NCBI RefSeq assembly: GCF_900199635.1
Contig: NZ_LT962687.1
Location: forward strand, 2,046,541-2,110,540
DNA from: Anaerotruncus massiliensis (ex Togo et al. 2026)
GTDB lineage: Bacteria > Bacillota > Clostridia > Oscillospirales > Ruminococcaceae
DNA: 64,000 bases
Reading direction: 5' to 3'
How positions within the stretch are numbered: position 1 is the stretch's first letter; the number at the start of each line of letters is the position of its first letter. The notes under the pieces are model-generated. The model was not told the DNA's origin, ran no database searches, and saw only the letters and a list, made by a program, of their open reading frames with translations. Below, in pieces: positions 3,632-55,267 of this stretch. The translations under genes were made by a program, and so were the position numbers.

Positions 3632-3696
3632 CCCGTCGCTCCTGCGGGAGGACTCCCGTGTTAAAATAGCCACCAATTGTTAAGGAGGAAAACAAA

Positions 3697-4851: not shown

Positions 4852-4891
4852 CGCCCAATTCACATTTATTTCTTTCTCCTATTCTCGTCAG

Positions 4892-4930
4892 ACCGGCTCC
4901 CCGCCCTGCGCGGGGGGCCGGTTTTCTCTT
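4892..4930 (+). terminator. Rho-independent terminator after the sugar ABC operon
   Basis: GC-rich inverted repeat (ACCGGCTCCCCGC / GCGGGGGGCCGGT) followed by TTTTCTCTT, 40 bp beyond the binding-protein stop. Confidence 0.85.
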
Positions 4931-5072
4931 GTTCCCCGCCGCCACGGTATCCTTTGGGTACCTACGTTACCGGAAAGTGCTTACTTTACTTTGCGCGGGC
5001 GGTGTATTATGATGAAAGCGTCGAAAGAACGCGCCTCCCGGCGCGGGAATAGAATGAAAGGCGGGCCGGTTT

Positions 5073-5678: not shown

Positions 5679-5701
5679 GACTCAGATAAAGGGGAACACA
5701 C

Positions 5702-6343: not shown

Positions 6344-7242
6344 AACATCAAATCCGTAAGGTTCTCAGCGTTCTGCTGGCCGTCCTGCTCTTCGCGGGCG
6401 TTTTTTCCGGCTGCGGCAAAAAGGATTCCGGCGTCGTCAGGATCGCCACCAAGCCGATGACCGAGCAGTTCATCCTCTCGGAAATGCTCGCGCAGCTCAT
6501 CGAGCAGGACACCGGGCTCACCGTCGAGATCACCAAGGGGATCGGCGGCGGCACCACCAACATCCACCCCGCGCTCCTCAAGGGCGACTTCGACCTCTAT
6601 CCCGAATACACCGGGACCGCCTGGGCGTTCGTCGTGAAGCGGGAGGACGTCCCCGACGACGACACCCTCTACGCGGGCCTGCAGGAGGCGTACCAGAAGC
6701 TCGGCCTCAAATGGACGGGGCTCTACGGCTTCAACAACACCTTCGCGCTCGCGGTCCGGCGCGATGTGGCGGAGCAGTACGGCATCGAGACCTACTCCGA
6801 CATCGCAAAGGTCTCCCCGGACCTCGTCTTTGGCGCGAACCCCGACTTCTTCGAGAAGGCGGACGGCTTCCCCCACCTCGCCGAGGCCTACGGCATGAAC
6901 TTCAAATCCACCTCCGACATCGATATCGGCCTCAAATACAAGGCGCTTGAAAACGGCGACATCGACGTGACCAACGCCTTCACCACCGACGCGCAGCTCA
7001 GCGTCGCGGACATCACGCTGCCCACCGACGACAAGCACCTCTTCACCAACTACTACTGCGGCACCGTCGTGCGGATGGACACCCTTGAAAAGCACCCCGA
7101 ACTCGAGCCGGTGCTCGAGAAGATGAACGGCCTCATCACCGACGCCGAGATGGCCTCGATGAACTACCAGGTCGAGGTGGAAAACCGCGATGAAAAGGAA
7201 GTCGCGAAGGAATTCCTGACCTCCAAGGGGCTGCTCAAATGA
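6340..7242 (+). CDS. Glycine betaine/choline-type substrate-binding lipoprotein (OpuCC family)
   Basis: 300 residues. Lipoprotein signal with lipobox FSGC near residue 24. The mature part begins VRIATKPMTEQFILSEMLAQLIE and contains GGGTTNIHPALLKGDFDLYPEYTGT, the hallmark of OpuAC/OsmX-type domains for quaternary amines. The upstream in-frame extension to 6280 lies inside the permease gene and is rejected; ATG 6340 overlaps the permease stop and starts the signal peptide. Stop overlaps the ATPase start by 4 bp. Confidence 0.92.
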   Translation: MKHQIRKVLSVLLAVLLFAGVFSGCGKKDSGVVRIATKPMTEQFILSEMLAQLIEQDTGLTVEITKGIGGGTTNIHPALLKGDFDLYPEYTGTAWAFVVKREDVPDDDTLYAGLQEAYQKLGLKWTGLYGFNNTFALAVRRDVAEQYGIETYSDIAKVSPDLVFGANPDFFEKADGFPHLAEAYGMNFKSTSDIDIGLKYKALENGDIDVTNAFTTDAQLSVADITLPTDDKHLFTNYYCGTVVRMDTLEKHPELEPVLEKMNGLITDAEMASMNYQVEVENRDEKEVAKEFLTSKGLLK

Positions 7243-7970
7243 GCGGTGACCCGATCATCCGTTTCGACCATGTCGGCAAGAGCTACGGCGTCAACGACGT
7301 GCTCACCGACGTGAGCCTCTCGATCGCGCGCGGCGAGTTCGTCACCGTGATCGGCAGCTCGGGCTGCGGCAAGACGACCCTTTTAAAGCTCATCAACGGC
7401 CTGCTCTCCCCCGACACGGGCGCCGTCTATGTGGAGGGGCGGGACGTCTCGACCGTCGACCAGATCGTCCTGCGCCGCAACATCGGCTACGCGATCCAGG
7501 GGGTGGGGCTCTTCCCCCACATGGACGTGTGGCACAACATCGCCTACGTCCCCACCCTGCTCAACAAGCAGAACAAGGAGAAGACCCGCCGCGCGGTGAA
7601 GAAATGGATGGAGGTCGTGCGCCTCGATCCCGAGCTTGCCAGGCGCTATCCCGCCGAGCTCTCGGGCGGGCAGAAGCAGCGGGTCGGCATCGCGCGGGCG
7701 CTCGCCGCCTCCCCAGACATCCTGCTGATGGATGAGCCGTTCGGCGCGGTGGACGACATCACCCGCAAGGCGCTGCAGGACGAGATTCTGCGCATCCACC
7801 GGGAGCAGGGCGTCACGATCGTCTTTATCACCCACGACATCGGCGAGGCGCTCAAGCTGGGGAGCCGCGTGCTCGTCATGGACCACGGCGGCATCGTGCA
7901 GGACGGCCCGCCCGACGAGCTGCGCAGCCGTCCCGCCACCGCCTTCGTGCGGGAGCTGGTCGGGGGCTGA
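7239..7970 (+). CDS. Glycine betaine/choline-type ABC importer ATPase (OpuCA/ProV family, no CBS domains)
   Basis: 243 residues. Walker A GSSGCGKTT, Q-loop in AIQGVGLFPHM (family-typical), signature LSGGQKQRVGIARAL, Walker B ILLMDEPFGAVD, H-loop FITHDIGEAL. It ends shortly after the nucleotide-binding domain, so the CBS pair that senses ionic strength in OpuA/OpuCA-type proteins is absent; osmotic gating by CBS domains is therefore not expected. Last gene of the compact operon. Confidence 0.92.
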   Translation: MSGDPIIRFDHVGKSYGVNDVLTDVSLSIARGEFVTVIGSSGCGKTTLLKLINGLLSPDTGAVYVEGRDVSTVDQIVLRRNIGYAIQGVGLFPHMDVWHNIAYVPTLLNKQNKEKTRRAVKKWMEVVRLDPELARRYPAELSGGQKQRVGIARALAASPDILLMDEPFGAVDDITRKALQDEILRIHREQGVTIVFITHDIGEALKLGSRVLVMDHGGIVQDGPPDELRSRPATAFVRELVGG

Positions 7971-21726: not shown

Positions 21727-23232
21727 CTAAACCATAAATTTGGTGGCAAGGCGCATGATCTCCTCTTCATTGATCGCGTCGCCCTCAAGTTCACCGGCCT
21801 TTTTGCCCTCGCACATCACCATGACCCGGTCGGCCATGCCGATCAGCTCGGGCATTTCGCTCGAAATCATCACGACGCATTTGCCCTGCGCCGCGAGGTC
21901 GGCCATAATCGTGTAGATCTCGTATTTCGCGCCCACGTCGATGCCGCGCGTGGGTTCGTCGAGCAGCAGGACCTCCGGCTCGGTCAGCAGCCACCGGGCG
22001 AAGAGCACCTTCTGCTGATTGCCGCCCGACAGGCTGTTCATCGGGGTGCGGATGCTCGGCGTCTTGATCGACAGGCGTTCGATGCTCTCCTCGGCCAGCT
22101 CGTTGCAGCGCCGTCCGTTGATCAGGCCGAGGAAGCGCGCCAGGCGCTTGTAGACGGCGATGTAGGTGTTTTCGCCCACGCCCAGCACCGGGAAGATGCC
22201 CGAGCCCTTGCGGTCCTCGGTGAGCAGGGCGATGCCGTTGTCCATCGCGTCGGTCGAGTTGTGCACCCGGATCTCCTTCCCGTCGAGGTAGAGCTTGCCC
22301 GCCCTGAGCGCGCGCAGGCCGAAGATCGCCTCGACCAGCTCGGTGCGCTGCGCGCCCACCAGGCCGCCCAGTCCGAGGATTTCTCCGCGGCGCAGCTCGA
22401 AGCTCACGTCCTGGAAGCTGCGGTCGTGGATCGACGAGAACCCCTCGACGCGCATGTAAACCTCGCCGGGCTTGTTCGTCTTGGGCGGGAAGCGGTTGCT
22501 CATGTCCCGCCCGACCATCTTGGAGATGATCATATCCGTCGTGAGGTCGGCGGCGTTCCAGGTACCGATCATCGTACCGTCGCGCATGATACTGACCTCA
22601 TCGGAAATTTTCTTGATTTCCTCCATCTTATGGGAGATGTAAATGATCGCGACTCCTTTGGAGCGCAGGTCGTTTATGATCGTAAACAGGTGGTCGACCT
22701 CGTCGGAAGTCAGCGAGGAGGTCGGTTCGTCCATGATGATTACCTTCGCGTTAAAGGAAACCGCCTTTGCGATTTCAATCGACTGGATCTGCGATACGGA
22801 GAGCGTCTTGACGAGCGCCTTCGGGTCGAGGTGGAGGTTGAGCCGCTCGAGCAGGTCCCGGGTGTCGTTATACATCTTTTTATAATCGACAACGATCCCT
22901 TTGATCGGGAACCGCCCCAGCCAGATGTTCTCCATGACGCTCAGGTGGGGCTCCGGGTGGAGCTCCTGGTGGATCATTGCGATCCCATGTTCGATCGCGT
23001 CGAGCGCGCCTGAGAAATTGACCGGCTGCCCGTCCAGAATCACGTCGCCCTCGTCGCGGACATAGATGCCGAACAGGCATTTCATCAGGGTGGATTTTCC
23101 CGCGCCGTTTTCGCCCATCAGGGCGTGCACGGTGGCGGGACGCACCTTGAGGGTGACCTTGTCAAGCGCCAGGACGCCGGGGAATCGTTTGGTGATGTTG
23201 TTCATTTCCAGGATGTAGCCGTTTTCACTCAT
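21727..23232 (-). CDS. mglA: Galactose-type sugar ABC ATPase with two NBDs (MglA-like)
   Basis: 501 residues. First NBD: GENGAGKST, LSVSQIQSIEIAKAV, IIMDEPTSSL. Second NBD: altered Walker A (GLVGAQRTE, family-typical), LSGGNQQK and LLLDEPTRGID. AGGGGGAA lies 9 nt before ATG 23232. It follows mglB after a strong mRNA hairpin at 23256-23285. Confidence 0.88.
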   Translation of the reverse strand: MSENGYILEMNNITKRFPGVLALDKVTLKVRPATVHALMGENGAGKSTLMKCLFGIYVRDEGDVILDGQPVNFSGALDAIEHGIAMIHQELHPEPHLSVMENIWLGRFPIKGIVVDYKKMYNDTRDLLERLNLHLDPKALVKTLSVSQIQSIEIAKAVSFNAKVIIMDEPTSSLTSDEVDHLFTIINDLRSKGVAIIYISHKMEEIKKISDEVSIMRDGTMIGTWNAADLTTDMIISKMVGRDMSNRFPPKTNKPGEVYMRVEGFSSIHDRSFQDVSFELRRGEILGLGGLVGAQRTELVEAIFGLRALRAGKLYLDGKEIRVHNSTDAMDNGIALLTEDRKGSGIFPVLGVGENTYIAVYKRLARFLGLINGRRCNELAEESIERLSIKTPSIRTPMNSLSGGNQQKVLFARWLLTEPEVLLLDEPTRGIDVGAKYEIYTIMADLAAQGKCVVMISSEMPELIGMADRVMVMCEGKKAGELEGDAINEEEIMRLATKFMV

Positions 23233-23255
23233 CTCGCTGAGTTCCCCCTTTAGGA

Positions 23256-23285
23256 GCGCGGGGGACGGGAACCCGTCCCCCGCGC
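23256..23285 (-). other. Stable hairpin between mglB and mglA
   Basis: 14-bp perfect stem GCGCGGGGGACGGG / CCCGTCCCCCGCGC with a 2-nt loop and no following T tract, so more likely an mRNA-stabilising or processing element than a terminator. Confidence 0.7.
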
Positions 23286-23307
23286 GTGCTGGTATGCCTG
23301 GCGCGGA

Positions 23308-24450: not shown

Positions 24451-25896
24451 TTACCAATTGGGGGCCTGTAAGTAGTCCGCGTAGGGGACCGGCTCGATCT
24501 TCTTCATGCCGAGCCAGCCCATCGCCTCGAGCAGCTCCTTTGAATAATCTCCCCGCACGATCGGGAAATGGTGGGAGAACCGCCGCACCAGCAGCGTGTT
24601 GACCAGGTCGAGCGCGCCGATGGGGGTCCCGTTGAGGGAGAGCCCGCCCAGCCAGCCGCGCGAGCCGTAGAAGCTGGGCTTCGTGTCCCCGAGGAAGCTG
24701 CCGTTCGCGACGAGCAGTTCGTCGGCCTCCCCCGAGATGCGCGCGATGGTCACCTCGCCGGGATCGAAGACCATGTCCCGCGTCACGCCGCAGCAGTTGG
24801 GCTCTTTCGCGCCCTCCTCGTGCGCCATGCCGTGGTAGTTGACGCTGAGCCGGTAGCCGTTCTGCCGGCAGAACCGGCTGGCGGCGGGGCCGCAGTGCCA
24901 CATGAGCACCGTGTCGTCCGCCTGGTCGAAGGCGCCCATGTCCATGAGCATCCCCACGTCGTCGGACAGGTATTTGAGCAGCAGCATGCTGATCGCGCTC
25001 GTGAGGTCCCCCTCGCAGGCGGTGGGGATCCCCTTGTCGTTGAGCCCGCCCACGACCGCGCAGACGCTGTATTGGAACTCGTCCTGGAACTTCGGCCAGC
25101 AGCTGACCGCGATCGCGTCGTAGCCGTACTCCTTAATAAAGTCGTCATAGGCCAGCGAGAAGCGGGCGTTCGTTTCGAGGGTCTCGTCCGCCCGGCGGTT
25201 GAGCACCCCGCCCGCCTCGGCGGCGATGCGCTCCATCTCGGCGGACACCTGCGCGGCGGAGTAGGCGACCGCGCGGTCGCGCACCTCGGAATACTCGTGC
25301 AGCCGGTTGATGCGGATGCCGTCGAAGCGGCGGATGAGCGTGCGCTCGTCGTCGTAGAGGTCGTCGAAGCCGGGGGCGATGCCGCCGATCAGCGCGACCT
25401 TGGAGGCCTTGAGGTTCTTGATCGCGCGCAGCGCGCGCACGGTGACCGCGAGGCGGCCGCGGAAGAGCGGGTCCTCCACGTCCCCGAAGAACCATTTGAT
25501 CGGGATGTTGTAATCCTTGAGGTAGTGGCCGATGATGCCGGAATACATGTTGATGGTGCAGAAGGAGTTGAAGGGCAGCACCCCATGGTCGGCATGCTCG
25601 GGGATCGCCCACAGGCCGAGCGCCGCCCGGGCGCGGGCGAAGATCGGGGCGAGCGCGCCCGCCGAAAAGCTGGTGCACTGCAGCAGGATGAAATCCACGC
25701 CTTCCCCCTCGAGGGCCTTCACGGCGGCGTAGCCGTCGTCCGGCGTGATGACGGTGCCGGGATGGACATAGAGCTCGAAGCCCAGCTGCCCGGACAGCGC
25801 CCGCAGCTTTTGGGCGCTCGCCTCATAGACGCTTTTTTTGTCGCCCGGGAAGCTGAGCTGGGACGAACTGACCAGGCCGACCTTCAGCGATTGCAT
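24451..25896 (-). CDS. L-fucose/L-arabinose isomerase-family protein
   Basis: 481 residues of the FucI/AraA fold: NSFCTINMYSGIIGHYLKD, IGGIAPGFDDLYDD, the metal-site stretch ACEGDLTSAISMLLLKYLSD, FDQADDTVLMWHCGPAA and a late NYHGMAHE. This family interconverts aldoses and ketoses (fucose, arabinose, galactose to tagatose). ATG 25896 is chosen over 25905 because AAAGGGG then sits at normal spacing. It is the promoter-proximal gene before mglBAC and divergent from a ROK kinase and a GatZ-like gene, pointing to isomerisation of the imported sugar. Exact substrate unproven. Confidence 0.8.
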   Translation of the reverse strand: MQSLKVGLVSSSQLSFPGDKKSVYEASAQKLRALSGQLGFELYVHPGTVITPDDGYAAVKALEGEGVDFILLQCTSFSAGALAPIFARARAALGLWAIPEHADHGVLPFNSFCTINMYSGIIGHYLKDYNIPIKWFFGDVEDPLFRGRLAVTVRALRAIKNLKASKVALIGGIAPGFDDLYDDERTLIRRFDGIRINRLHEYSEVRDRAVAYSAAQVSAEMERIAAEAGGVLNRRADETLETNARFSLAYDDFIKEYGYDAIAVSCWPKFQDEFQYSVCAVVGGLNDKGIPTACEGDLTSAISMLLLKYLSDDVGMLMDMGAFDQADDTVLMWHCGPAASRFCRQNGYRLSVNYHGMAHEEGAKEPNCCGVTRDMVFDPGEVTIARISGEADELLVANGSFLGDTKPSFYGSRGWLGGLSLNGTPIGALDLVNTLLVRRFSHHFPIVRGDYSKELLEAMGWLGMKKIEPVPYADYLQAPNW

Positions 25897-25942
25897 ACGG
25901 ATCATTCCCCTTTCCACGGCCTGCGCGGCCGGCAAACATCCG

Positions 25943-28571: not shown

Positions 28572-29627
28572 TCATTCGGACACCCTGATCAGCGTCTTGA
28601 TGACCTCCTGCGCGTTGTTCGCGGTATACCGGAACGCGGCGTCGCTCTCCCCGAAGGGGAACTCGCGCGGCCGGATTCCCGAAAGGTCGATCTTTCCGCT
28701 CGCGACCGCCTCGATCAGCATCGGATAGAGGTTGCGGTAGCGGAAGACGGGACGGATGTCCACCTCCTTGCGGGAAATCTCCAAAAAGCTGTAGGGCACG
28801 TCGGCGGTGATGTTGCCCACCAGCGTGATGACGCCGCCCCGCCTGACGTATTTCCACGTGTCGACCATCGTGTGGGGGCTGCCCGCCGTCTCGAACACGA
28901 CGTCGCAGCCCGCGCCGCCCGTCAGCTCCATCACGGCCGCCTCCAGATCCTGCTCCCTGGGGTTGACGACGACGTCCGCGCCGAACGCCCTCGCGCTCTC
29001 CAGACGGCTTTCGATGAGGTCGGAGACGACGATGCGGGTCGCGCCCAGCGCCTTGCAGGCGAGCAGGGTCATGATTCCGATGGTGCCCGAGCCGAGGATG
29101 CAGACGCTCTGCCCCATCGTGACGCCGCCGCGTTTGGCGGCGTGCATCCCGACGGCGAGCGGCTCGAGCATCGCGCCCTCCTGCATCGTCATCGAGTCGG
29201 GGAGCCGGAAGCACAGGTCGGCCGGATGGGCGAGGTAGTTTTGCAGCGCGCCGTCGAAGGGCGGCGCGGCCATGAAGCGCACGTCGGGGCAGAGGTTGTA
29301 GAGCCCCTCGCGGCAGAGCTCGCACCTGCCGCAGGGGACGCCCGGCTCGAGCGCGACGCGGTCGCCGACTTTGAGGGTCGTGACCCCCTCGCCCAGCTCG
29401 GCGACGTAGCCGGAGCACTCGTGCCCCAGGATGAACGGGAAGGGCGCGACCTTCTTGCCGATGCTCCCGTGGGTGTAAAAATGCATATCCGAGCCGCAGA
29501 TGCCGCAGTACTCCGTTTTGACGACGACCTCGCCCGGGCCGGCCTTCGGCATCGGGGCGTCCGCCATCTCGATCTTCTGGATCGCGGTCAGCCGCGCGAC
29601 GCGGTTCTGAATCTGTTCCATGCTCAT
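28572..29627 (-). CDS. Zn-dependent medium-chain alcohol/polyol dehydrogenase (sorbitol/xylitol dehydrogenase-like)
   Basis: 351 residues. Catalytic zinc site YCGICGSDMHF and GHECSG; structural zinc cysteines in CGRCELCREGLYNLC; Rossmann motif CILGSGTIGIM, with SDL after the second strand suggesting NAD. Oxidises or reduces a secondary hydroxyl of a polyol-type substrate. Start 29627 gives a short spacing to GGGGG; the ATG at 29621 is an alternative. It is the last gene of the NitT/TauT-type importer operon (42 bp after the ATPase), so it probably acts on the imported compound. Confidence 0.88.
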   Translation of the reverse strand: MSMEQIQNRVARLTAIQKIEMADAPMPKAGPGEVVVKTEYCGICGSDMHFYTHGSIGKKVAPFPFILGHECSGYVAELGEGVTTLKVGDRVALEPGVPCGRCELCREGLYNLCPDVRFMAAPPFDGALQNYLAHPADLCFRLPDSMTMQEGAMLEPLAVGMHAAKRGGVTMGQSVCILGSGTIGIMTLLACKALGATRIVVSDLIESRLESARAFGADVVVNPREQDLEAAVMELTGGAGCDVVFETAGSPHTMVDTWKYVRRGGVITLVGNITADVPYSFLEISRKEVDIRPVFRYRNLYPMLIEAVASGKIDLSGIRPREFPFGESDAAFRYTANNAQEVIKTLIRVSE

Positions 29628-29669: not shown

Positions 29670-30419
29670 TCACCACCATTTGATCTGCGAGGTGACGTAT
29701 TCGCGCAGGCGGACAAACTCCGGCGAGGCGATGTCGCGCGGGCGCGGCAGGTCGATCTTCAGCTCCTCCTTCACCGTCGTGGGCTTCTGGGAGAGGATGA
29801 GGCACTTGTTGGAGAGGTAGACCGCCTCCTCGACGTTGTGGGTGATGAAGATGACCGTCGAGCCGGTGGCCTGCCACAGCTTGATGACCTCGTCCTCGAG
29901 GTAGTAGCGCATCTTGATGTCCATCTGGCCGTAGGGCTCATCCATCAGCAGCAGGTCGGGGTGCATCGCGAAGCTGCGCCCGATGACGATGCGCTGCACC
30001 GTCGAGGCGGACAGCTCGTGCGGGTAGGAGTTGCGCACCTTGTCCAGGCCGAGCAGGCCGAGGATCTCCTCGGTGCGCTCCCGGATGAGTTGCTCGGGAT
30101 ATTTTTTCAGCTCCAGCCCGTAGCGGATGTTCTTTTCGACCGTCAGCCAGGGCAGGTGCGAGGGGTTCTGGAAGACGAAGCTGAGGTTGTGCTTTTTGGG
30201 GTCCGCCGGTTCCCCGTCCACGAGGATCTCCCCCTCGGTGAGGGAGAAGAGCCGGACGAGGCATTTCAAAAAGGTCGTTTTCCCACAGCCGGTGGGGCCG
30301 ACGATGCAGACGAAGTCGCCCTTCTGGATATCGAAGGAGACGTTGTCGAGCACCTTCAGGTCGCCGAAGCACTTTGTGAGGTTTCTGACCCGGACTTTCA
30401 CGTTGTCGTTTTCGCTCAT
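29670..30419 (-). CDS. NitT/TauT-type ABC ATPase 2 (intact Walker A and H-loop, degenerate signature)
   Basis: 249 residues. Walker A GPTGCGKTTFLK is canonical, Walker B LLLMDEPYGQMD, switch histidine present in FITHNVEEA. The ABC signature is LSASTVQR instead of LSGGMQQR, and the D-loop is GQMD rather than GALD. GGAGGAGG lies 8 nt before ATG 30419. Paired with the ATPase at 30439, whose defects are complementary. Subfamily members import nitrate, taurine, alkanesulfonates or pyrimidine precursors. Confidence 0.9.
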   Translation of the reverse strand: MSENDNVKVRVRNLTKCFGDLKVLDNVSFDIQKGDFVCIVGPTGCGKTTFLKCLVRLFSLTEGEILVDGEPADPKKHNLSFVFQNPSHLPWLTVEKNIRYGLELKKYPEQLIRERTEEILGLLGLDKVRNSYPHELSASTVQRIVIGRSFAMHPDLLLMDEPYGQMDIKMRYYLEDEVIKLWQATGSTVIFITHNVEEAVYLSNKCLILSQKPTTVKEELKIDLPRPRDIASPEFVRLREYVTSQIKWW

Positions 30420-30438
30420 CTGTTCTGCCTCCTCCCGC

Positions 30439-31194
30439 TTACAGCACCAGGTCCGTGTTGGCAACGATCTCGTTGCGCAATTTCAGGAACGCCGGATCGG
30501 TATAGTTCCTCGGCCTGGGCAGGTCGGGCACATATTCCTTCTTCACGCCGGTGGGGTGCCCGCCCAGCAGGATGATGCGGTCGCCGAGGTAGATGGCCTC
30601 CTCCACGTTGTTGGTGACGAAGATGACCGTGCGGCGGTCCTTCTCCCAGATGCGCAGGATCTCATCCTCCATCGAGTAGCGCGTCTGCGCGTCGAGCGCG
30701 CCGAACGGCTCGTCGAGCAGCATGATGTCCGATTCGCTGGCGTACGCCCGGGCGATGCCCACGCGCTGCTGCATGCCGCCCGAAAGCTGCTTGGGCAGGG
30801 AGTTTTCAAACCCCTGCAGCCCGACGAGCTCGATGTATTTCTGCGCGGCCGCCTGCCGCTCCGCCTTGGATTTGCCCTTGAACTTCTGGTTGATCTCCAC
30901 GTTCCCCATGACCGTTTTCCAGGGGAAGAGGGCGTACCGCTGGAAGACCACCCCCAGGTCGCCCATCGGCGGGCGGCCGTTCACGAAGGTGATCTCCCCC
31001 CCGGTGGGGGCGTCCAGCCCCGCCAGGATGTTCAGGAGCACCGTCTTGCCGCACTGGCCGGGGCCGAGCAGGACGAGGAACTCGTTCTCCTTGACGGTGA
31101 TGTTGATGTCCTTGAGCACCTCTTTGGTCTCGCTCTTCAGGTAGAAGGTCTTTGCGAGGTCCTTGATGATTATTGTGTCTTTGAGAACTGCCAC
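30439..31194 (-). CDS. NitT/TauT-type ABC ATPase 1 (degenerate Walker A, H-loop Asn, intact signature)
   Basis: 251 residues. Walker A reads GPGQCGKT, with Gln where the fourth position is normally Gly; the switch histidine is replaced by Asn (FVTNNVEEA). Signature LSGGMQQRVGIARAY and Walker B IMLLDEPFGALD are normal. GTG 31194 is the start: AAGGAG is 10 nt upstream, and the long upstream extension lies within the permease gene. Overlaps the permease end by 25 bp. Predicted heterodimer with ATPase 2. Confidence 0.88.
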   Translation of the reverse strand: MAVLKDTIIIKDLAKTFYLKSETKEVLKDINITVKENEFLVLLGPGQCGKTVLLNILAGLDAPTGGEITFVNGRPPMGDLGVVFQRYALFPWKTVMGNVEINQKFKGKSKAERQAAAQKYIELVGLQGFENSLPKQLSGGMQQRVGIARAYASESDIMLLDEPFGALDAQTRYSMEDEILRIWEKDRRTVIFVTNNVEEAIYLGDRIILLGGHPTGVKKEYVPDLPRPRNYTDPAFLKLRNEIVANTDLVL

Positions 31195-36505: not shown

Positions 36506-37573
36506 TCAGATCATGTAGCCGCGCACGAGGCAGACCAGATCGTCGTATCCGGCGAGGAAGGTCTTGATCGTGTCGTGAAAGCCGCCGTAGCGGACGAACT
36601 CCTCCGGCTTCATGCCGTCCTCGTCGTAGGACTTGCGGAACTCGCCGAGCTTTTCGAGGGCGGCGAGGTACTCCGCAGGGACCGGCTCGCCGATGCGGTC
36701 CTCCACGGGCATGTCGCAGCCGCCGTTGAGGCGCTGCTGCCACTTGTAGTTGATCGTCTGGCAGAGGTCGCCGCCCACCAGCTCGGACCAGTGGTAGACG
36801 TTGCGGTTGGCAGCGCTCAGCAGCCGGGTGGTGTAGCCGCGCTCCTTGTAGATGGCGTACGCCTTCTTGATGACGGCGACGCCCGCCCACTCGAGCGCCT
36901 CGGGGATGACGGTGACGCCCTCGGCGGCGGTCGCGGCCTTCATCCAGTCGTCGGTGCGGCCGATCATGATGGTGCAGACGGGCGCCATTTCATCGCAGGG
37001 CAGGCCCTCGGCCTTCCGGCGCGCGAGGCCGCGCTCGACGGCCTCCGCCACGGCGACCGCCTGCGCCACGGTGAAGCTCACCGTCGCGTTGATCGACACG
37101 CCCCGGTAGGTGGCCTCCTCCATCGCCTCGACGCCGGCGGCGGAGGCGGGCAGCTTGACCTGCATATTCCTGCCGAGCGTGTTGAGCATGACGGCCTGCT
37201 CGACCATCTTGTCCCTGCTGCGGTAGTATTTCGCGTTCACCTGGATCGAGAGGCGGCCCTTCCTGCCCTTGAATTTTTCAAAGACGGGCAGCAGCTTTTT
37301 GCTGCGCTCCCGGCCCACCTCGTAGAGGAGCAGCCAGGTGATCTCGTCCTCGGTGGCCGAGGGGTTCTCCGCGATCAGCTGGCGGATGCGGGGCTCCCAG
37401 TAGGGGAGCTCCTTCTTGACCACCGCGCCCACGATGATCGGGTTGCTCGTCGCGCCCACGATGCCGCGCGCGAGGCCGTAGTCCAGCTCCTCCTCCCCGC
37501 AGGAGTCCATCCAGATGTCAGTGTCGGGGAAGCGGACCGCCGTCTCGTGCAGCACGCCTTTATAGTCGCTCAT
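36506..37573 (-). CDS. Transaldolase-family protein (large form)
   Basis: 355 residues. TIM-barrel transaldolase features: IVGATSNPIIVGAV near the N-terminus, MQVKLPASAAGVEAMEE containing the Schiff-base lysine, SINATVSFTVAQAVAVAEAVERG, and later LLSAANRNVYHW. Longer than TalB/TalC and of a divergent subgroup whose substrate I cannot name. GGAGG is 7 nt before ATG 37573. Last gene of the seven-gene operon. Confidence 0.85.
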   Translation of the reverse strand: MSDYKGVLHETAVRFPDTDIWMDSCGEEELDYGLARGIVGATSNPIIVGAVVKKELPYWEPRIRQLIAENPSATEDEITWLLLYEVGRERSKKLLPVFEKFKGRKGRLSIQVNAKYYRSRDKMVEQAVMLNTLGRNMQVKLPASAAGVEAMEEATYRGVSINATVSFTVAQAVAVAEAVERGLARRKAEGLPCDEMAPVCTIMIGRTDDWMKAATAAEGVTVIPEALEWAGVAVIKKAYAIYKERGYTTRLLSAANRNVYHWSELVGGDLCQTINYKWQQRLNGGCDMPVEDRIGEPVPAEYLAALEKLGEFRKSYDEDGMKPEEFVRYGGFHDTIKTFLAGYDDLVCLVRGYMI

Positions 37574-37604
37574 ATCGTTTCCTCCTGTCAATGGATGTGT
37601 GTCC

Positions 37605-38282
37605 TTATTCCTTCACGGTGCTGTCCCACGCGTCGCGGAAGACGCCGAGGCCGTAGGAGGTGAAGGGATGCTCGAAGGAGTCCTTGTAGACCTGCAGCCC
37701 GCAGGTGACGATGTCCGCGCCCGCGCAGGCGTAGTCGACGATCTGCTTGCCGCTGCGCACGGCGGCGACAATGATCTCGGTCCTGTAGTCGTAGTTGCGG
37801 TAGATCTTCACGATCCTGGAGATGTATTCGAGCGCGTCCTCGCCGTTGTTCTCCTTCCAGCCCACGAAGGGGGAGACGAACTTCGCGCCCAGCTTGGCCG
37901 CCTGGATCGCCTGGGAGGGGCTGAACACGAGGGTCACGTTGGTGCGCACGCCCTGCTCCTCGAGCTTTTTGGCGGCGATGACCCCCTGCTCGCAGCAGGG
38001 GATCTTGATGGCGTAGTTCTTCGAGTAGGAGGCGACCTCCTTGGCGGCCGCCACGATCTCCTCCCACTGGGCGAGGTGGGGATTGATCTCGAAGGAGACG
38101 GGGAAATCCGTCCCCTCCAGGCCGATCTCCCGCAGCCACGCCGCGATGTCCCGCACGCACTGCATGAACGGCTTGCCGCTCAGCTTGATGTGCTTGGGGT
38201 TGGTGGTCACGCCGTCGATGCAGTAGTGCTCGTAGGCGAATTTGATCTCGTCGAGTTTTGCGCTGTCCAAAAAGTATTTCAT
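37605..38282 (-). CDS. Fructose-6-phosphate aldolase/TalC-like transaldolase
   Basis: 225 residues, the size of the FSA/TalC group. KYFLDSAKLDEIKFA, DGVTTNPKHIKLSG, NYAIKIPCCEQG with the catalytic Lys, NVTLVFSPSQAIQAAKLGAKFVSPFVG and GADIVTCG. Cleaves or forms C3-C4 bonds with a dihydroxyacetone unit. Lies 13 bp after the RpiB-like gene, with a second transaldolase 31 bp downstream. Confidence 0.9.
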   Translation of the reverse strand: MKYFLDSAKLDEIKFAYEHYCIDGVTTNPKHIKLSGKPFMQCVRDIAAWLREIGLEGTDFPVSFEINPHLAQWEEIVAAAKEVASYSKNYAIKIPCCEQGVIAAKKLEEQGVRTNVTLVFSPSQAIQAAKLGAKFVSPFVGWKENNGEDALEYISRIVKIYRNYDYRTEIIVAAVRSGKQIVDYACAGADIVTCGLQVYKDSFEHPFTSYGLGVFRDAWDSTVKE

Positions 38283-38294
38283 GCCGCTCTCTCC

Positions 38295-38771
38295 TTATTT
38301 GTAAATGGTTTCTTCCAGATTCGCCACCTTGACGCGCGCGTTTTTGAGGAAGTCCCTGCGCCACTCCTCGAGGTTGTCGGTGAAGCCGGTGTCGAGGAAT
38401 TTGTCCACCATGGCGACGCCCAGTTCGGGCGCGACGATCCAGCCGCCCATCGTCATGACGTTGGCATCGTTGATCGCCCGGCATTTCTCCGCCGCGTAGA
38501 CGCTCTCGCACGCCACGGCGTAGACGCCCCGGTATTTGTTGGCCACCACGGCCATGCCCGCGCCCGTCCCGCAGATCAGGATGCCGCGCGAAAATTCGCC
38601 CGACTGGACCCGCTCGGCGACGACCGGCGCCACCTCGAAATAGGGGATGCCCGCTTCGAGCGATAGGGTGCCGCAGTCCTCCACCTCGACGCCCCGTTCA
38701 AGCAGGTGGGCCTTGACCGCCTCCTTGAGGGAAAAGCCCGATTTGTCCGAACCGATGATGATCTTTTGCAC
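38295..38771 (-). CDS. RpiB/LacAB-type sugar isomerase with altered active site
   Basis: 158 residues, typical RpiB size. The catalytic base Cys67 is present in CGTGAGMAVVANKYRG. Two positions differ from ordinary RpiB: the Asp-His pair is Asp9-Lys10 (GSDKSGF), and the ring-opening His of the usual HN-D/N-AN motif is Ile100 (RAINDANVM). A substrate that need not be ring-opened, such as a tetrose, would fit. GTG 38771 is the start (AAGGAGGAG upstream). Part of the transketolase operon. Confidence 0.88.
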   Translation of the reverse strand: MQKIIIGSDKSGFSLKEAVKAHLLERGVEVEDCGTLSLEAGIPYFEVAPVVAERVQSGEFSRGILICGTGAGMAVVANKYRGVYAVACESVYAAEKCRAINDANVMTMGGWIVAPELGVAMVDKFLDTGFTDNLEEWRRDFLKNARVKVANLEETIYK

Positions 38772-38809
38772 GATAACTCCTCCTTCGCGCGGGGCCTTCC
38801 CCGCGCCGT

Positions 38810-39757
38810 TTATCCCTTTTTCGCCGCGACGGCGGATCTGGCCGCCGCCGCGATGTCTTTCGCCGTGAGGCCGTACTTCTCCTTGAGAAACTCGGTGAGC
38901 CCTACCTCGCCGAAGTGGTCCCGCACCCCGACCCGGCGCAGCGGCACGGGGCGGTTTTCCGACAGGCACTCGGCGACCGCGCCGCCCAGTCCGTTTAAAA
39001 TCGAGTGGTTTTCCGCGCTCACGACCGCGCCCGTCTTGCCGGCGCTGGCGATCAGCAGCGCCTCGTCGAACGGCTTGATGGTGTGGAAGTTGAGCACCTC
39101 CGCGTCGATGCCGTCCGCCCTTAGAAGCTCCGCGGCGTCGAGCGCCTCGGCGGTCATGATGCCGCTGGCCGCGATGGTGACGTCGCGGCCCTCGCGCAGG
39201 ACGATCCCCTTGCCGAGGGTGCAGGCGCAGCCCTCCTCGAAAATTTTCACCGCGTTGCGGCGCAGGAGGCGGATGTAGACCGGCCCCGCGCACTCCACGA
39301 TCTGCGGGAAGGCGGCGCGCAGCTGGGCGCTGTCGGTCGGCTCGAAGATCGTCATGCCGGGGATGTTGCGCATGATCGCCACATCCTCCATGCTCATGTG
39401 GGTGCCGCCGTTGAGCTCGGCGGTCACGCCCGGGTCGCTACCCATGATCTTGACGCCGAGCCCCGCGTAGGCCACCGACAGCGTCACCTGGTCGCACACC
39501 CGGCGGGTGGAGAAGGGGGTGAAGGTGTGGGTGAAGGGGATCTTCCCCATCGCCGCCATGCCGGCGGCCGTTCCGATCATGCCCGCCTCGGCGATTCCCA
39601 CGTTGATCGTCCGCTCGGGGAACCGCTCTTTGAAGCGGCCGGTGCCGGCCGCCTTGCTCAAATCGGCCTCCAGGATGACGACGCGCTCGTCCCGTTCGGC
39701 CGCCGCGATGAGCTCATCCACATAGGTCTCCCTCAGCCATCTGTTTTCCAGTTCCAT
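38810..39757 (-). CDS. Transketolase C-terminal subunit (split transketolase)
   Basis: 315 residues: pyrimidine-binding and C-terminal domains, beginning LRETYVDELIAAAERDERVV, with DLSKAAGT, NVGIAEAGMIGTAAGMA (glutamate that activates thiamine diphosphate), FTHTFTPFSTRR and GSDPGVTAELNGGTHMSMED. ATG 39757 (or 39760) overlaps the stop of the N-terminal subunit, with AGGAGG upstream. Works only with the product of 39757-40587. Confidence 0.9.
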   Translation of the reverse strand: MELENRWLRETYVDELIAAAERDERVVILEADLSKAAGTGRFKERFPERTINVGIAEAGMIGTAAGMAAMGKIPFTHTFTPFSTRRVCDQVTLSVAYAGLGVKIMGSDPGVTAELNGGTHMSMEDVAIMRNIPGMTIFEPTDSAQLRAAFPQIVECAGPVYIRLLRRNAVKIFEEGCACTLGKGIVLREGRDVTIAASGIMTAEALDAAELLRADGIDAEVLNFHTIKPFDEALLIASAGKTGAVVSAENHSILNGLGGAVAECLSENRPVPLRRVGVRDHFGEVGLTEFLKEKYGLTAKDIAAAARSAVAAKKG

Positions 39758-40587
39758 CATGCGTCCTCCTCGTCCAGCAGCGCCACCGCTTTTTGCCACA
39801 TTTCCCCGGTGATATTCATGTTGTGGGAGGCGACCTGGTTCTCGCAGAAATAGCCGCCCTTGCCCTTGACGGTGTCCAGAAGGATCATCGACGGGCGGTC
39901 GGTGATCTTCTGCGCGTTGTCGATCGCGTGGGAGATGGCCGCGACGTCGTGGCCGTCCACCGACTGCACATGCCAGCCGAACGCCTCCCACTTTTTGTCG
40001 AGCGGGTAGAGGCCGTTGACCTCTTCGATGTACCCGTCAAGCTGCATCTTGTTGTAGTCGGTGAAGGCGATCAGGTTGCCGAGCCTGCGGCTGCCCGCCA
40101 GCATGGCGGCCTCCCAGATCTGCCCCTCCTGGCTCTCCCCGTCGCCGATGATCGTATAGACGCGGACGGGGCTGCGGTTCAGCTTTCCCGCCACCGCCAT
40201 GCCCACGGCGGCCGAGAACCCCTGCCCGAGGCTGCCCGTCGTCATATCGACGCCCGGCGTGCGGTTCATATCGCAGTGGCTCGGGAGGTTGGTGTTCGGA
40301 CGGTTGAGGGTGTCCAGCCAGTCGAGCCCAAAATAGCCCCTGAGCGCCAGCGTCGCGTAGAGCGCCGGGCCGCCGTGCCCCTTGGAGAGGACGAAGCGGT
40401 CGCGGTCGGGCTTCTTCGGGTCCGCCGGGTCGATGTTCATCACGTCGAAATAGAGCACCGCGAGGACCTCGGGCAGCGAGAGGCTACCCCCGATGTGGCC
40501 CACGCCGAGCTTCCCGATCGACGTCAGCGTGTATTTGCGGATTTCATGCGCCTTTTTCCGCAGCATGGCTGTTTTTTTCTCATTCAA
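39757..40587 (-). CDS. Transketolase N-terminal subunit (split transketolase)
   Basis: 276 residues: thiamine-diphosphate domain, with KLGVGHIGGSLSLPEVLAVLY, DRFVLSKGHGGPALYA, GSLGQGFSAAVGMA and the metal/ThDP motif IGDGESQEGQIWEAAM...AFTDYNKMQ. TTG 40587 (MNEKKT) is preferred to ATG 40566 because AAAGGGG lies upstream and the N-terminus matches family length. Immediately follows the Fe-dehydrogenase gene. Confidence 0.88.
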   Translation of the reverse strand: MNEKKTAMLRKKAHEIRKYTLTSIGKLGVGHIGGSLSLPEVLAVLYFDVMNIDPADPKKPDRDRFVLSKGHGGPALYATLALRGYFGLDWLDTLNRPNTNLPSHCDMNRTPGVDMTTGSLGQGFSAAVGMAVAGKLNRSPVRVYTIIGDGESQEGQIWEAAMLAGSRRLGNLIAFTDYNKMQLDGYIEEVNGLYPLDKKWEAFGWHVQSVDGHDVAAISHAIDNAQKITDRPSMILLDTVKGKGGYFCENQVASHNMNITGEMWQKAVALLDEEDA

Positions 40588-40604
40588 GGCTTCCGGCCCC
40601 TTTC

Positions 40605-41729
40605 TTATAGGATCGAGCGCAGCAGCGCTTCGACGGTCTCCTGGTTCATTTCCGCCGGCGTGAGCTGGATGATCGCCGCCGTCAGCCCGACTTCGGCGAT
40701 GTGCGGGATGTCCGCCTCCCGCACGCCCAGCTCCCGAAGCCGCACCGGCATCTTCATGCTCCGCATCAGCGCCTCCACCCCGTCCGCGAGCGCGCCCGCG
40801 TCCGCGTAGCCGAGGTACCCGGCGAGCACCCGCAGCTTTTCGGCCGCGCCCTGCTTCGCCGCCCGGATGAAGGCCGGGAGGGTGATCGAGCAGGCCGCGC
40901 CGTGGCTGGCGTGGAACTCGGTGGTCAGCGGGAAGCTGACCGCGTGGATGCCCGTCGTCCGGGTCTGGCTGAACGCCACGCCCGCCACCAGCGCCGCCGT
41001 GATCATCGCGCCGCGCGCCGCGGTGTCGTCCGGATGGTCGTAGGCGGCCTTGATGTTCTCGAGAATCGTCTTGAGCGCGCCCATCGCCAGAAAGTCGCAC
41101 ATCGGCTGGCTCTCCTTGTTCCAGTAGGCCTCGATCGCATGGCAGAAGGCGTCCATGCCGGTGGAGGCGGTCACCGCCGGAGGCAGCGAATAGGTCATCT
41201 CCGGGTCGATGAGCGCCTCGTCCGCCCAAAACTCGTCGGTGACGAAGGGCATTTTGACCCCCGCGCGCGGGTTGGTGTAGACGCCGACGTTGGTGACCTC
41301 GCTGCCGGTGCCCGCGGTGGTCGGGATGAGGATCAGCTTCACCGCGCGGGGACCGAACCGTTTGGTGCCGCCCGCGTAGTAGTCGTAGATGCTGCCGCCG
41401 TTGGTCACGAGGCAGGCCACGACCTTCGCCACATCCATCGCGCTGCCGCCGCCCACGCCGATGACCGTCTCGGCGCGCGCGGCGCGCGCGGCCTCGGCGC
41501 ACGCGTCCACGCTCACGGTGGAGGGGTTGGGCTCGATGCCGCTGAAGTAGGAAACGGTCTTTCCCTCGAGCGCGCCGCCGAGCTTTTCGGCAACGCCGCT
41601 TTGGTAGAGAAAGGGATCGCAGACGATCATGACCCTCTCCCCCCGGATCCGCCCGGTCATGTTATGCGCGATGCCGACGCCGTAGTGCACGGCGACCGGC
41701 ATGTGGAAGCGGAAATTCTTTGTGTTCAT
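40605..41729 (-). CDS. Iron-containing alcohol dehydrogenase
   Basis: 374 residues of the group III dehydrogenases: [14 protein letters not shown] (NAD binding), [12 protein letters not shown], and metal ligands in [15 protein letters not shown] and [11 protein letters not shown]. Reduces aldehydes in fermentative routes; in this operon a short aldehyde released by transketolase/transaldolase chemistry is a likely substrate. AGGAGGG is 6-7 nt before ATG 41729. Second gene of the operon. Confidence 0.9.
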
Positions 41730-41758
41730 AGTCAACGCCCTCCTGGTCTTGATATGGT

Positions 41759-42679
41759 TTACATGGAGGCGGCCAGATGCCCCTCCTCCTTCTTACGCTG
41801 TTCAAACAGGACGCCCATCGCGCCGGCCAGCACCACCGCGACGCCCAAAAGCTGCTTCCCTGTGAGGGTCTCGCCGAAGAGCAGGAAGCTGATGACGGTC
41901 GAGACGATCGGCATGAAGAGCAGAAACACCTTGACGAGCCAGACGGGGAAACGCGCGAGGTCGTAGTAGTAGACGATGTAGACGCCCGTCTGCCCGAGCC
42001 CCGCGACGACGAGTCCGAGGGTAATCCCGGGGTCGGTCCCGAAGAGGCGGAGCTGCCCGATCGTGCCCATCATGCAGGCGGTGACGGTGAAGAGGATCAT
42101 CGTCACAAAGTTGTTGTAGTAGGCGATCACATCGTTGGAGACGGAATTTTTCCCGCTGCGCTGCACGCTCTTGATGAGAAACGCGTTGATCGAGACGAAG
42201 AGCGCGCTCAGGATGAAGAAGATGTCCCCCTTTCCGCCGAGGGAGGCGTGCAGGAAGTCGAAATCCATCACGAGCAGCACGCCAAAGAGCATCACAAAGG
42301 TGTCGATCCACTCCCGGCCGGTGAACTTCTGCTTATAGATGATGACGCTGATGAGGTTGACGAAGAGGATGTCCGTCTTGAGCAGGGCGGTGCCCGCGCC
42401 CGCCGGAGAGAGGGAGAGGCCGACGAACGCCGTGAGGTCGAGCAGGAAGCCCATCAGCCCGATCAGCAGCAGCCGGGCGAACACGCCCTTCACCCTCAAA
42501 AGGGAGGGCAGCTCCCGCTTCCAGAGCATGACGGCGGTCAGCAGCACCATCGTCAGCAGGCGGATGACGATCCCGACCGTAAAGACGGACATCCGCTCCA
42601 CCGACTTGTGGCTGGCCACATAATAGATCCCCCAGATGAGCGCCAGCAGAAGCAGCGGCGCCGCCTGTTTTGGTTTCAT
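41759..42679 (-). CDS. EamA/DMT-family transporter
   Basis: 306 residues, ten predicted transmembrane helices in two EamA repeats (first about 5-135, second about 150-290; the second ends [24 protein letters not shown]). These proteins mostly export metabolites. Start ATG 42679 with GGGGGG 7 nt upstream; the frame extends to 42709 without ribosome site. First gene of the transketolase operon, so export of an end product or import of the substrate are the two options. Confidence 0.88.
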
Positions 42680-42760
42680 CGCGATTCCCCCCATCCGCCT
42701 CCCCGTCATCGCGCCGCGGAACCGGGCCGCGGACGATGGAGGACGCTCCAGAATTATTTA

Positions 42761-52651: not shown

Positions 52652-53353
52652 TTACATGCCGAGATACGCCTTCTGGACCCGCTCGTCCTCCCGCATCTCC
52701 TTGGCGGTGCCGCTCATCACGATCCGCCCCGTCTCGAGCACGTACGCCCTGTCCGCGATCGAAAGCGCCATCTGCGCGTTCTGCTCGACCAGCAGGATCG
52801 TCGTCCCGGCGCGGTGCAGCTCCTGGATGATGTCGAAGATCTGCTCCACCAGGATGGGCGCAAGCCCCATCGACGGCTCGTCGAGCATCAGCAGGGTCGG
52901 ATGGCTCATGAGCGCGCGGCCCATCGCCAGCATCTGCTGCTCGCCGCCCGAGAGGGTGCCCGCCACCTGCCTGCGGCGTTCCCTGAGGCGGGGAAACCGC
53001 TCGTAGACGTTTTCGAGGTCGGCGGACAGCGCGGTGGGCTTCTGGGTATAGGCGCCCATCTCGAGGTTCTCCTGCACCGTCATCTGCAAAAAGATGCGCC
53101 GCCCCTCGGGCACGTGGGCAAGCCCCAGCTTGACGATGTGGTTGGGGGCCGCCGTGCGGATGTCGCCGTCGAGGAAGGTGATGCTGCCGGTCTTGGTGCG
53201 CAGAAGGCCGGAGACCGTCTTGAGGATGGTGCTTTTGCCCGCGCCGTTGGCGCCGATCAGCGAGACGATCTCCCCTTTGGCGACCTCGAAGGAGATGTCC
53301 TTGATCGCATGGATGTTGCCGTAGTAGACGTTGATATCACTGACCTTCAGCAT
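52652..53353 (-). CDS. livF: Branched-chain amino acid ABC ATPase LivF
   Basis: 233 residues. GANGAGKST, signature LSGGEQQMLAMGRAL, LMLDEPSMGLAP and the family-typical LLVEQN in place of a switch histidine; VPEGRRIF is a LivF landmark. ATG 53353 overlaps the end of livG by 17 bp. Confidence 0.95.
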   Translation of the reverse strand: MLKVSDINVYYGNIHAIKDISFEVAKGEIVSLIGANGAGKSTILKTVSGLLRTKTGSITFLDGDIRTAAPNHIVKLGLAHVPEGRRIFLQMTVQENLEMGAYTQKPTALSADLENVYERFPRLRERRRQVAGTLSGGEQQMLAMGRALMSHPTLLMLDEPSMGLAPILVEQIFDIIQELHRAGTTILLVEQNAQMALSIADRAYVLETGRIVMSGTAKEMREDERVQKAYLGM

Positions 53354-54203
53354 CCTGCTTCTCCCCCCTCTTCTTGCCGAGATACGCCTCGATGACCACC
53401 GGGTTGCGCCGGATCTCCTCCGGCGTGCCCTTGGCGATGATTTTGCCGTAGTTGAGCACCGCGATCCCCTCGCAGATGCCCATGACAAGGCTCATGTCGT
53501 GCTCGATCAGCATGATCGCGATCTGGAAGGTATCGCGGATTTTGTGGATATTCTCCATCAGCTCGGTCGTCTCCGAGGGGTTCATGCCCGCCGCCGGCTC
53601 GTCGAGCAGCAGCAGCTTGGGGCCGGTCGCCAGCGCGCGCACGATCTCCAGCCGCCGCTGCGCGCCGTAGGGGAGGCTTCCCGCCTCCGCGTCCGCCTGG
53701 TCCTGCATCCCGAAGATCGAGAGCAGCTCCAGCGCCTTCTCCCTCGCCGCCTTCTCCGCCTTCCAGTATTTCGGCAGGCGCAGGGTCGAGGTCAGCATGT
53801 TGTAATGGGTGTGGTTGTGCATCCCGATCAGGACGTTGTCGATCACCGACAGGTTCTTAAAGAGCCGGATGTTCTGGAAGGTGCGCGCCACGCCCGCCCG
53901 GTTGACCTGGATGGTGCTCATCCCCTTGGTGTCCCTGCCGTCGATGAGGATCTTGCCGCGGGTGGGCTGGTAGACCTTGGTCAGCAGGTTGAAGACGGTC
54001 GTCTTGCCCGCGCCGTTCGGGCCGATGAGGCCGCAGATCTCGGTGCGGCCGACGGTGAGGTTGAAGTCGTCGACGGCGGGCAGCCCGCCGAATTCGATGC
54101 TCAGCCCGATCGCCTCCATGACGGGGGTATAGGCCTTGTCGCGCTCGGGGAGGATCTTTTCCCGGCTGTCGTAGTCGTTATAGGTCAGCTCGTAATCGCT
54201 CAT
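53337..54203 (-). CDS. livG: Branched-chain amino acid ABC ATPase LivG
   Basis: 288 residues. A 28-residue N-terminal extension (SDYELTYNDYDSREK) precedes the NBD. GPNGAGKTT, LivG-type signature LPYGAQRRLEIVRAL, LLLLDEPAAGMNP and switch His in IEHDM. Overlaps the livM stop by 4 bp. Confidence 0.94.
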   Translation of the reverse strand: MSDYELTYNDYDSREKILPERDKAYTPVMEAIGLSIEFGGLPAVDDFNLTVGRTEICGLIGPNGAGKTTVFNLLTKVYQPTRGKILIDGRDTKGMSTIQVNRAGVARTFQNIRLFKNLSVIDNVLIGMHNHTHYNMLTSTLRLPKYWKAEKAAREKALELLSIFGMQDQADAEAGSLPYGAQRRLEIVRALATGPKLLLLDEPAAGMNPSETTELMENIHKIRDTFQIAIMLIEHDMSLVMGICEGIAVLNYGKIIAKGTPEEIRRNPVVIEAYLGKKRGEKQDAEGQ

Positions 54204-55267
54204 TGCTTGACCGCCTCCCCCTTCTTTTTCCCGCCAAAGCGGTTCATGAACTTCTCAAGCAGCCTGCTCATCGAGAAGTCGTAGGTGCCCATCAGGCCGG
54301 AGGGCTTGAAGATCATCACCAAAATGAGCACGATCGAATAGAGCACCATGCGCCACTTGTCGAAGGCGAGCAGCACCTGGGGCAGCGCGGTGAGCACGGT
54401 GGCGGAGAGGATCGAACCGAGCATCGAGCCCATGCCGCCGAGCACGACCATCACGAGAATTTCGATCGATTTCATGAAGCCGAAGGTGTTCGGCTGGAGG
54501 ATGCCGACGTAGGTCGCGTAGAGCGCGCCCGCCACCCCCGCGAAGAACGCCGAGAGGGTGAACGCCATGACCTTGTAGTAGGTGGTGTGAATGCCGCAGC
54601 TTTCGGCGGCGATCTCGTTTTCGCGGATCGAGAGGATCGCGCGCCCGTGGCGGGACTTCATGACCATGTGGATCACCAGGCAGGTGATCACCACGCAGAT
54701 GAACACGTTCGAGACGGTCGCGGCCTTGGGGATGCGCTTGAGGCCGGAGGCGCCGAAGGTGAAGTCGAAGCCGAGCACGCTGTCGATGTTGAGGAGCACG
54801 ACGCGGATGATCTCGCCGAAGCCGAGGGTGATGATCGCGAGGTAGTCCCCCTTGAGGCGCAGGGCGGGCACACCGATGATGATGCCAAAGATCGCGGCCA
54901 CCAGCCCCGCCAGCAGAAGCGCCAGCACGACGTAGAAATTGTATTGGAGGTGCGCGGCGGCGGCGTTCGCCCCTTCGGGGAGCTTGTCGAGATTGGGCAT
55001 GGGCATCGCCTTGAGGAAGATGCCCGCCGCATAGCCGCCGACCGCCATGAACCCGGCGTGCCCGAGCGGAAGCTGCCCGAGGTAGCCGGTCGCCACGTTG
55101 AGCGAGACGGCCAAGATGATGTTGATGCCGACAAGCATGAGAATTTTGGTGTAGTAGCTCGAGAGCGCGCCGGTGATGAGGTTGAGCGCCACGAACGCCA
55201 GGACGACCAGCGCAGCGTTGATCGCGTAGCGCGCGGGCATGGGGATGCGTTTTTGATTCTGATTCAT
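54200..55267 (-). CDS. livM: Branched-chain amino acid ABC permease LivM
   Basis: 355 residues, about ten helices. AVSLNVATGYLGQLPLGHAGFMAVGGYAAG and LRLKGDYLAIITLGFGEIIR are LivM hallmarks; GGMGSMLGSILSA occurs near the C-terminus. 13 bp after livH. Confidence 0.95.
   Translation of the reverse strand: MNQNQKRIPMPARYAINAALVVLAFVALNLITGALSSYYTKILMLVGINIILAVSLNVATGYLGQLPLGHAGFMAVGGYAAGIFLKAMPMPNLDKLPEGANAAAAHLQYNFYVVLALLLAGLVAAIFGIIIGVPALRLKGDYLAIITLGFGEIIRVVLLNIDSVLGFDFTFGASGLKRIPKAATVSNVFICVVITCLVIHMVMKSRHGRAILSIRENEIAAESCGIHTTYYKVMAFTLSAFFAGVAGALYATYVGILQPNTFGFMKSIEILVMVVLGGMGSMLGSILSATVLTALPQVLLAFDKWRMVLYSIVLILVMIFKPSGLMGTYDFSMSRLLEKFMNRFGGKKKGEAVKQ

Follow-up and report, generated by a model that had tools for sequence, protein, structure and literature searches.

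The window, as the whole 64,000-nucleotide stretch analysed here is called, contains a five-gene run on its minus strand that reads from 33962 down to 29670 and encodes a binding protein (SBP), two permeases and two ATPases, referred to below as A and B (Table 1). The coordinates and motifs that the initial annotation had given for the two ATPases (GPGQCGKT, LSGGMQQR and TNN in A; GPTGCGKT, LSASTVQR and THN in B) were confirmed in the sequence. The gene for a zinc-dependent alcohol dehydrogenase (zinc ADH) that follows B is probably part of the same operon; a homologue lies directly after the importer in two related loci (L001 and L006) and at a greater distance in a third (L003).

Table 1. 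Features of the importer region in the window, and of the two importers with a milder motif pattern (L070 and L108, each numbered within its own locus).
Feature	Coordinates	Strand	Assignment and remarks
SBP P0005	32823-33962	-	Pfam NMT1 and NMT1_2; nearest NCBIfam is the SsuA family, below cut-off
Permease 1 P0004	31949-32746	-	BPD_transp_1; nearest curated model TauC, below cut-off
Permease 2 P0003	31170-31952	-	BPD_transp_1; nearest curated models TauC and SaoP, below cut-off
ATPase A P0001	30439-31194	-	Pfam ABC_tran; GPGQCGKT, LSGGMQQR, GALD, FVTNN
ATPase B P0002	29670-30419	-	Pfam ABC_tran; GPTGCGKT, LSASTVQR, GQMD, FITHN
Zinc-dependent alcohol dehydrogenase	28572-29627	-	Start 42 bases downstream of B
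Sulfo-transketolase-like set	38295-42709	-	RpiB domain, split transketolase, Fe-ADH, EamA exporter; context, outside the transporter
L070 importer	4107-7519		SBP, single permease, two ATPases, milder complementary pattern
L108 importer	3349-6760		SBP, single permease, two ATPases, milder complementary pattern

Judged from its sequences, the system is a binding-protein-dependent importer of the NitT/TauT type with one SBP, two different permeases and two different ATPases. Matches to PF09084 and PF00528 were over their cut-offs, and the closest curated models pointed to the TauABC/SsuABC and SaoA systems, with SaoA, TauB and NtrCD among the best models for A and B and the SsuA family nearest to the SBP, all of them below cut-off. 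Specifically, A and B scored 204.2 and 166.4 against the TauB equivalog NF008421 (curated cut-off 357) and 218.1 and 206.5 against the SaoA equivalog NF040729 (curated cut-off 360), and neither subunit qualified for either equivalog. In a quick tree, both ATPases joined the TauB-like rows, the other ABC classes being represented there by two rows only, on long branches.

The neighbouring genes at many loci, among them taurine genes, sulfatases and sulfo-transketolase-type genes, suggest that the substrates are organosulfonates or sulfate esters. Genes for sulfonate or sulfate-ester catabolism adjoin the importer at many, not all, of the loci, and at some loci the scans made revealed no organosulfur neighbour. 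At L051 and L056, Xsc exceeded its cut-off; L056 also encodes an alanine dehydrogenase over cut-off and a class III aminotransferase, and xsc homologues were additionally present in L054, L055 and L080. A sulfatase turned up in the sequence retrieved around at least 17 of 55 census loci; tblastn accounted for 15 of these, and Pfam added L017 and L053. The SBPs scored below the SsuA/TauA model cut-off (95.8 for P0005 against 163.5; 133.2 for the best of six further SBPs). Additional SBP-like genes lie by the importer at L012:2140-4359, L013:2134-4369 and L057:8097-10443, suggesting that more than one binding protein may serve a single transporter.

In the window itself, the importer may carry sulfoquinovose or another sulfonate. 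A sulfoglycolysis-like gene set occupies positions 24451-25935 and 36506-42709, comprising a weakly sulfoquinovose-isomerase-like gene, two TAL/FSA-family genes, an RpiB domain, a split transketolase, an Fe-ADH and an EamA exporter. The sole NCBIfam match of the isomerase at E <= 1e-40 was sulfoquinovose isomerase, with a score of 142.6 against a cut-off of 700. The genes for EamA, Fe-ADH and the split transketolase lie at 38.8-42.7 kb and that for zinc ADH at 28.6 kb. At least one homologue of these four was found near the importer in each of L001 and L003-L007, which belong to the subclade of the window, with split transketolase, Fe-ADH and EamA homologues adjoining the importer in L001 and L003; the L002 contig ends directly after B. 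The set resembles the bifurcated transketolase/transaldolase pathway of Faecalicatena as well as the sulfo-transketolase gene content (SqvD, SqwGH, SqwI and SqwF) described in portions of PMC9594981, PMC11659671 and PMC12890257. An ABC importer has been proposed for sulfoquinovose, its SBP being likened to the Agrobacterium SQ-binding protein (a passage of PMC11659671); the words NitT and TauT are absent from PMC12890257.

The two ATPases depart from the usual ABC motifs at different places. The initial annotation had described the Walker A motif of A as broken; position 4 is indeed Q where the ABC form normally has G, but the general pattern GxxxxGK[ST] still fits, so that the motif is altered rather than lost. 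An altered D-loop had also been listed as a defect of B. B mostly carries GQLD, yet A carries GQLD as well in 17 of 55 sequences, which ruled out the D-loop as a B-specific defect. The remaining deviations (Walker A, H-loop and signature) all fall at one composite site when the subunits are paired. With three deviations dealt randomly to two subunits, however, this one-site pattern is expected 1 time in 4; a single locus is therefore weak evidence, and the strength of the complementarity claim derives from its conservation in related loci.

A census of relatives was assembled by similarity to A. Of 20 loci recovered when contigs were scanned with A, 18 were true relatives and two belonged to other ABC families. 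Within the phylum of the window genome, 7 of 398 genomes were assigned to the family, as judged by a score gap and by motifs; 10 of 297 genomes in the phylum of L010 and 11 of 198 in that of L008 gave matches at E <= 1e-98. The final census held the window and 55 loci, minus L083 (a copy of L009), and thus 55 A and 54 B sequences, L077 having no B at its contig edge. Family members are present in Clostridia, Brachyspira and Deltaproteobacteria/Desulfovibrio. In the phylum of a Methylomonas genome, 0 of 388 genomes gave a match at E <= 1e-88 with the best 7 candidates scored in the genomes listed, an empty outcome that, for want of a positive control, is uninformative. None of 4 stretches recovered from viral contigs with P0006 was a relative. 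No AAA_assoc_C domain was found in the window's own genome, a result that is uninformative.

The complementary pattern was conserved across nearly the entire census. The full set was defined as an A whose Walker A has Q or R as its fourth residue, whose His is replaced by N or S and whose signature GG is intact, together with a B with intact Walker A, intact His and Ser in place of the second signature Gly; 52 of 54 paired loci carried it (37 of 39 after 90% clustering). The two exceptions were L018, whose A gene is truncated by a contig edge and so has no Walker A, and L070, a milder variant; a second milder variant, L108, stands outside the main count, and its inclusion gives 52 of 55. Among the A sequences, Walker A position 4 was Q in 52 and R in 1 of 54 readable cases, the H-loop position was N in 54 of 55, and the LSGG-type signature was intact in all 55. 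In B, the second signature Gly was replaced by Ser in 53 of 54 sequences, and the canonical signature was found in 0 of 54. The co-occurrence that had been proposed as a check was found, and no homologous pair with canonical motifs in both subunits appeared among the 54 paired loci, a partly circular outcome in that the loci were gathered through A. For the same reason the motifs of A were partly selected for; those of B were not. The recurrence of the same kind of change at these 52 loci, spread over several phyla, rules out local mutation or relaxed selection in the window genome as an explanation, and decay in general is unlikely because the altered residues are themselves conserved. As a separate observation, one Brachyspira A copy (L095:6047-6694) contains two stop codons (1 TGA and 1 TAA) next to an intact-looking B.

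The alterations mark off the family from the next-nearest relatives sampled. In the own-phylum search, the last family member scored 358 bits and the best canonical relative 324 bits; since L070 reached 317 bits, below that canonical relative, such a threshold could overlook close relatives whose motifs are weaker. All of the 23 loci just below the gap (L028-L050), a sample of the weaker matches, carried G[PA]SGCGK[ST], LSGG and TH. Among ATPases scoring over 150 bits in 15 TauT-type regions next nearest to the family in that phylum, 17 of 17 were canonical; 13 of these regions are L028-L050 loci with longer flanks, so that this control shares loci with the preceding one. Canonical motifs were likewise present in L111-L114, four regions taken from the phylum of L010. 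TauB/SsuB-type systems normally have one ATPase and one permease gene, a layout with which most control regions agreed: 13 of the 15 encode a single ATPase, whereas L115 and L116 encode two, all canonical, and canonical ATPase pairs were seen solely in these regions outside the family.

A and B also travel together. Profile searches made separately with A and with B across the 398 own-phylum genomes recovered the same 7 genomes with 8 places each, and the pairing is retained across three gene orders. Distances among the A sequences correlated with those among the B sequences over 32 loci (r = 0.85, a value reached in 0 of 2000 permutations), for which shared operon descent would be a sufficient explanation. 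The two distinct permeases noted in the initial annotation are likewise a family trait, with two permease genes beside the ATPases in 51 of 55 census loci. In 46 of these, one permease is P0003-like and the other P0004-like; in the other five (L069, L075, L076, L078 and L079) both are nearer to P0004, one of the L076 pair being a short fragment. The remaining four loci comprise three cut off by contig edges (L011, L018 and L077) and L070, with its single permease. The two permease types have distinct EAA-type loops, which makes a heterodimeric membrane part probable too.

These observations bear on the idea that A and B each work as a homodimer in a transporter of its own, the two sharing an operon by chance. 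An ATPase serving several importers does exist, MsmX being an example (as presented in part of PMC11466899), and one B gene stands without A on a 4,360-base contig (L109) from a genome, G497, that gave no A-type match in the A searches. (A second isolated B gene, L110, belongs to G460, whose A lies at the contig edge in L077.) Each homodimer would, however, carry two half-altered sites, and the paired permeases, the shared 7 of 398 genomes and the correlated distances all speak against separate transporters, which we consider very unlikely. It is similarly hard to credit that A is a regulatory pseudo-ATPase that senses nucleotide or sulfur state while B alone drives the importer. The altered Walker A and the Asn of A, and the placement of B apart from A in some loci, would suit such a role, but the invariably noncanonical signature of B would leave a B homodimer with two altered sites, and the LSGG-type signature is preserved in every A.

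We consider it likely that A and B form an obligate heterodimer in a NitT/TauT-type importer of organosulfonates or related sulfur compounds, with one hydrolytic site and one that is probably binding-only. By motif, the pair has two different ATPase subunits whose deviations lie at one composite site in the 52 paired loci, on the geometry of ABC dimers outlined in sections of PMC7756269. In the proposed arrangement, site 1 would be the hydrolytic one, B contributing Walker A, Walker B and His and A the LSGGM signature. At site 2, A would contribute the GPGQxGK[ST] loop and Asn, and B the LS[AS]S-type signature. This altered site most likely binds ATP, hydrolyses it slowly or never, and serves as a latch, so that one hydrolysis would take place per transport cycle. 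What the data show directly is the sequences, the gene set, the conservation and joint occurrence of both subunits, their clade apart from canonical TauB-like relatives and the organosulfur genes near many members; we infer that the subunits pair as a heterodimer, how each site handles ATP and what is transported.

The initial annotation had predicted one consensus and one fully degenerate site. The complementarity stands; the altered site, however, is less degenerate than that, as it retains the Lys of Walker A (54 of 54 A sequences readable there), the Glu of Walker B and the Gln of the Q-loop. The GxxxxGK[ST] pattern fits all 54 readable A and all 54 B sequences; every A (55 of 55) and every B (54 of 54) has both the Asp and Glu of Walker B and the Gln of the Q-loop, and the two subunits keep the signature Ser. 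Loss of the catalytic Glu, a hallmark of degenerate exporter sites (according to parts of PMC7544095), is thus absent from the census. The retention of Lys, Glu and Gln favours a site that binds or slowly hydrolyses ATP, and the same conservation is compatible with a heterodimer in which both sites hydrolyse and the GPGQ loop, the Asn and LSAS are mutually tuned, tolerated variants of little mechanistic meaning. Site 2 may hydrolyse, since the Glu is kept and since MRP1 tolerates Asn for the H-loop His in NBS2 with no loss of transport (as reported in a section of PMC7756269). Against two hydrolytic sites, all altered positions lie at one composite site and none at the other across deep divergence, and the alterations are absent from all of the 17 control ATPases; we regard this reading as unlikely, though it deserves some weight.

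Two trees were built for the descent of the pair: the quick tree described above and a careful one in which the motif residues were masked. Both grouped the A-role rows and the B-role rows with one another. In the masked tree, 73 A-role and B-role rows formed one clade against 22 canonical rows (support 99/86), and B was a single clade (100/99) that included L070_B and L108_B. The quick tree placed L070_A beside B, and a topology forcing all A-role rows into one clade, with L070_A as an early A branch, was rejected (AU p = 0.003); it is the A-role ATPases of L070 and L108 that prevent a single A-role clade. L070 and L108 each have an NMT1-type SBP, an A-role ATPase with GPTGCGKT, SGGM and TNN and a B-role ATPase with GPTGCGKT, SAGM and THN; no second permease was found in either at E <= 1, except for a 24-bit stray, and their neighbours differ (HcyBio, URO-D and C-N hydrolase). 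The same polarity therefore exists in a milder form with one permease gene. These loci may represent an intermediate state, gene conversion (which is possible for L070_A) or a second invention.

Combined, the results describe a family of probable organosulfonate importers of gut and sediment bacteria that offers a natural series for importer tests of ATP stoichiometry and of the latch, running from canonical through mild (L070 and L108, with one permease gene and an intact Walker A) to fully asymmetric pairs. A more speculative and rather doubtful extension is that mostly anaerobic bacteria living on energy-poor organosulfonates repeatedly turned a symmetric TauT importer into a machine spending one ATP per molecule, through duplication of the ATPase, with one site a permanent ATP latch while the other fires; L070 and L108, in which a single permease goes with an A-role subunit derived from B, would then represent the same conversion run a second time, in part. 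If so, this second run would indicate that ATPase asymmetry is independent of permease duplication.

The retention of one altered ATP site by many ABC transporters has been studied mostly in exporters, according to the literature searched. TM287/288, BmrCD, MRP1 and ABCG5/G8 resemble the A-B pair in having one consensus and one altered composite site, but they are exporters and have usually lost the catalytic Glu; in ABCG5/G8, changes in the signature and Walker A go together (per a portion of PMC7756269). The closest solved ATPases by sequence belong to NrtBCD/CmpBCD (PDB 8wm7 and 9u9z), which likewise have two different ATPase chains per importer. Unlike A and B, however, CmpD and CmpC (two alignments each) and NrtC carry GHSGCGKS, SGGM and THD, Gln replacing the Walker B Glu in one CmpD copy; NrtC and CmpC are also far longer chains with an extra domain.

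Other importer ATPases in the window display the same principle. At 52655-54254, an ATPase that we take to be LivG-like keeps its His and has LPYGAQRR, and a presumed LivF-like partner has LSGGEQQ and Gln for His. The likeness to LivF/LivG drawn in the initial annotation was borne out, with the same polarity as B and A in separate genes, but Walker A is intact in both and the importer family is different. At 977-2644 and 21730-23307 lie two fused ATPases, presumably RbsA-like, whose N halves have His with a poor signature and whose C halves have an altered Walker A (GLMGAGRT and GLVGAQRT), Ser for His and LSGGN. The RbsA/NupO type thus shares the complementarity of A and B, but in a single fused chain whose C-half Walker A Lys is lost. 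RbsA and NupO of B. subtilis have published degenerate sites and fall under the type II importers in the scheme given in part of PMC11466899. The complementarity principle is therefore already known in importers; what appears to be new here is a conserved, separately encoded complementary ATPase pair in NitT/TauT importers, for which no precedent in print was found in the open-licence literature among the matches listed. Additionally, tandem PstB-like ATPases from Firestonebacteria (L020:4905-6577), one over and one just under the PstB cut-off, carry complementary deviations (19 protein letters, not shown, in one against GPSGCGKS/LSLEQKQR/THN in the other) and, at this one locus, may be an independent example from a phosphate importer.
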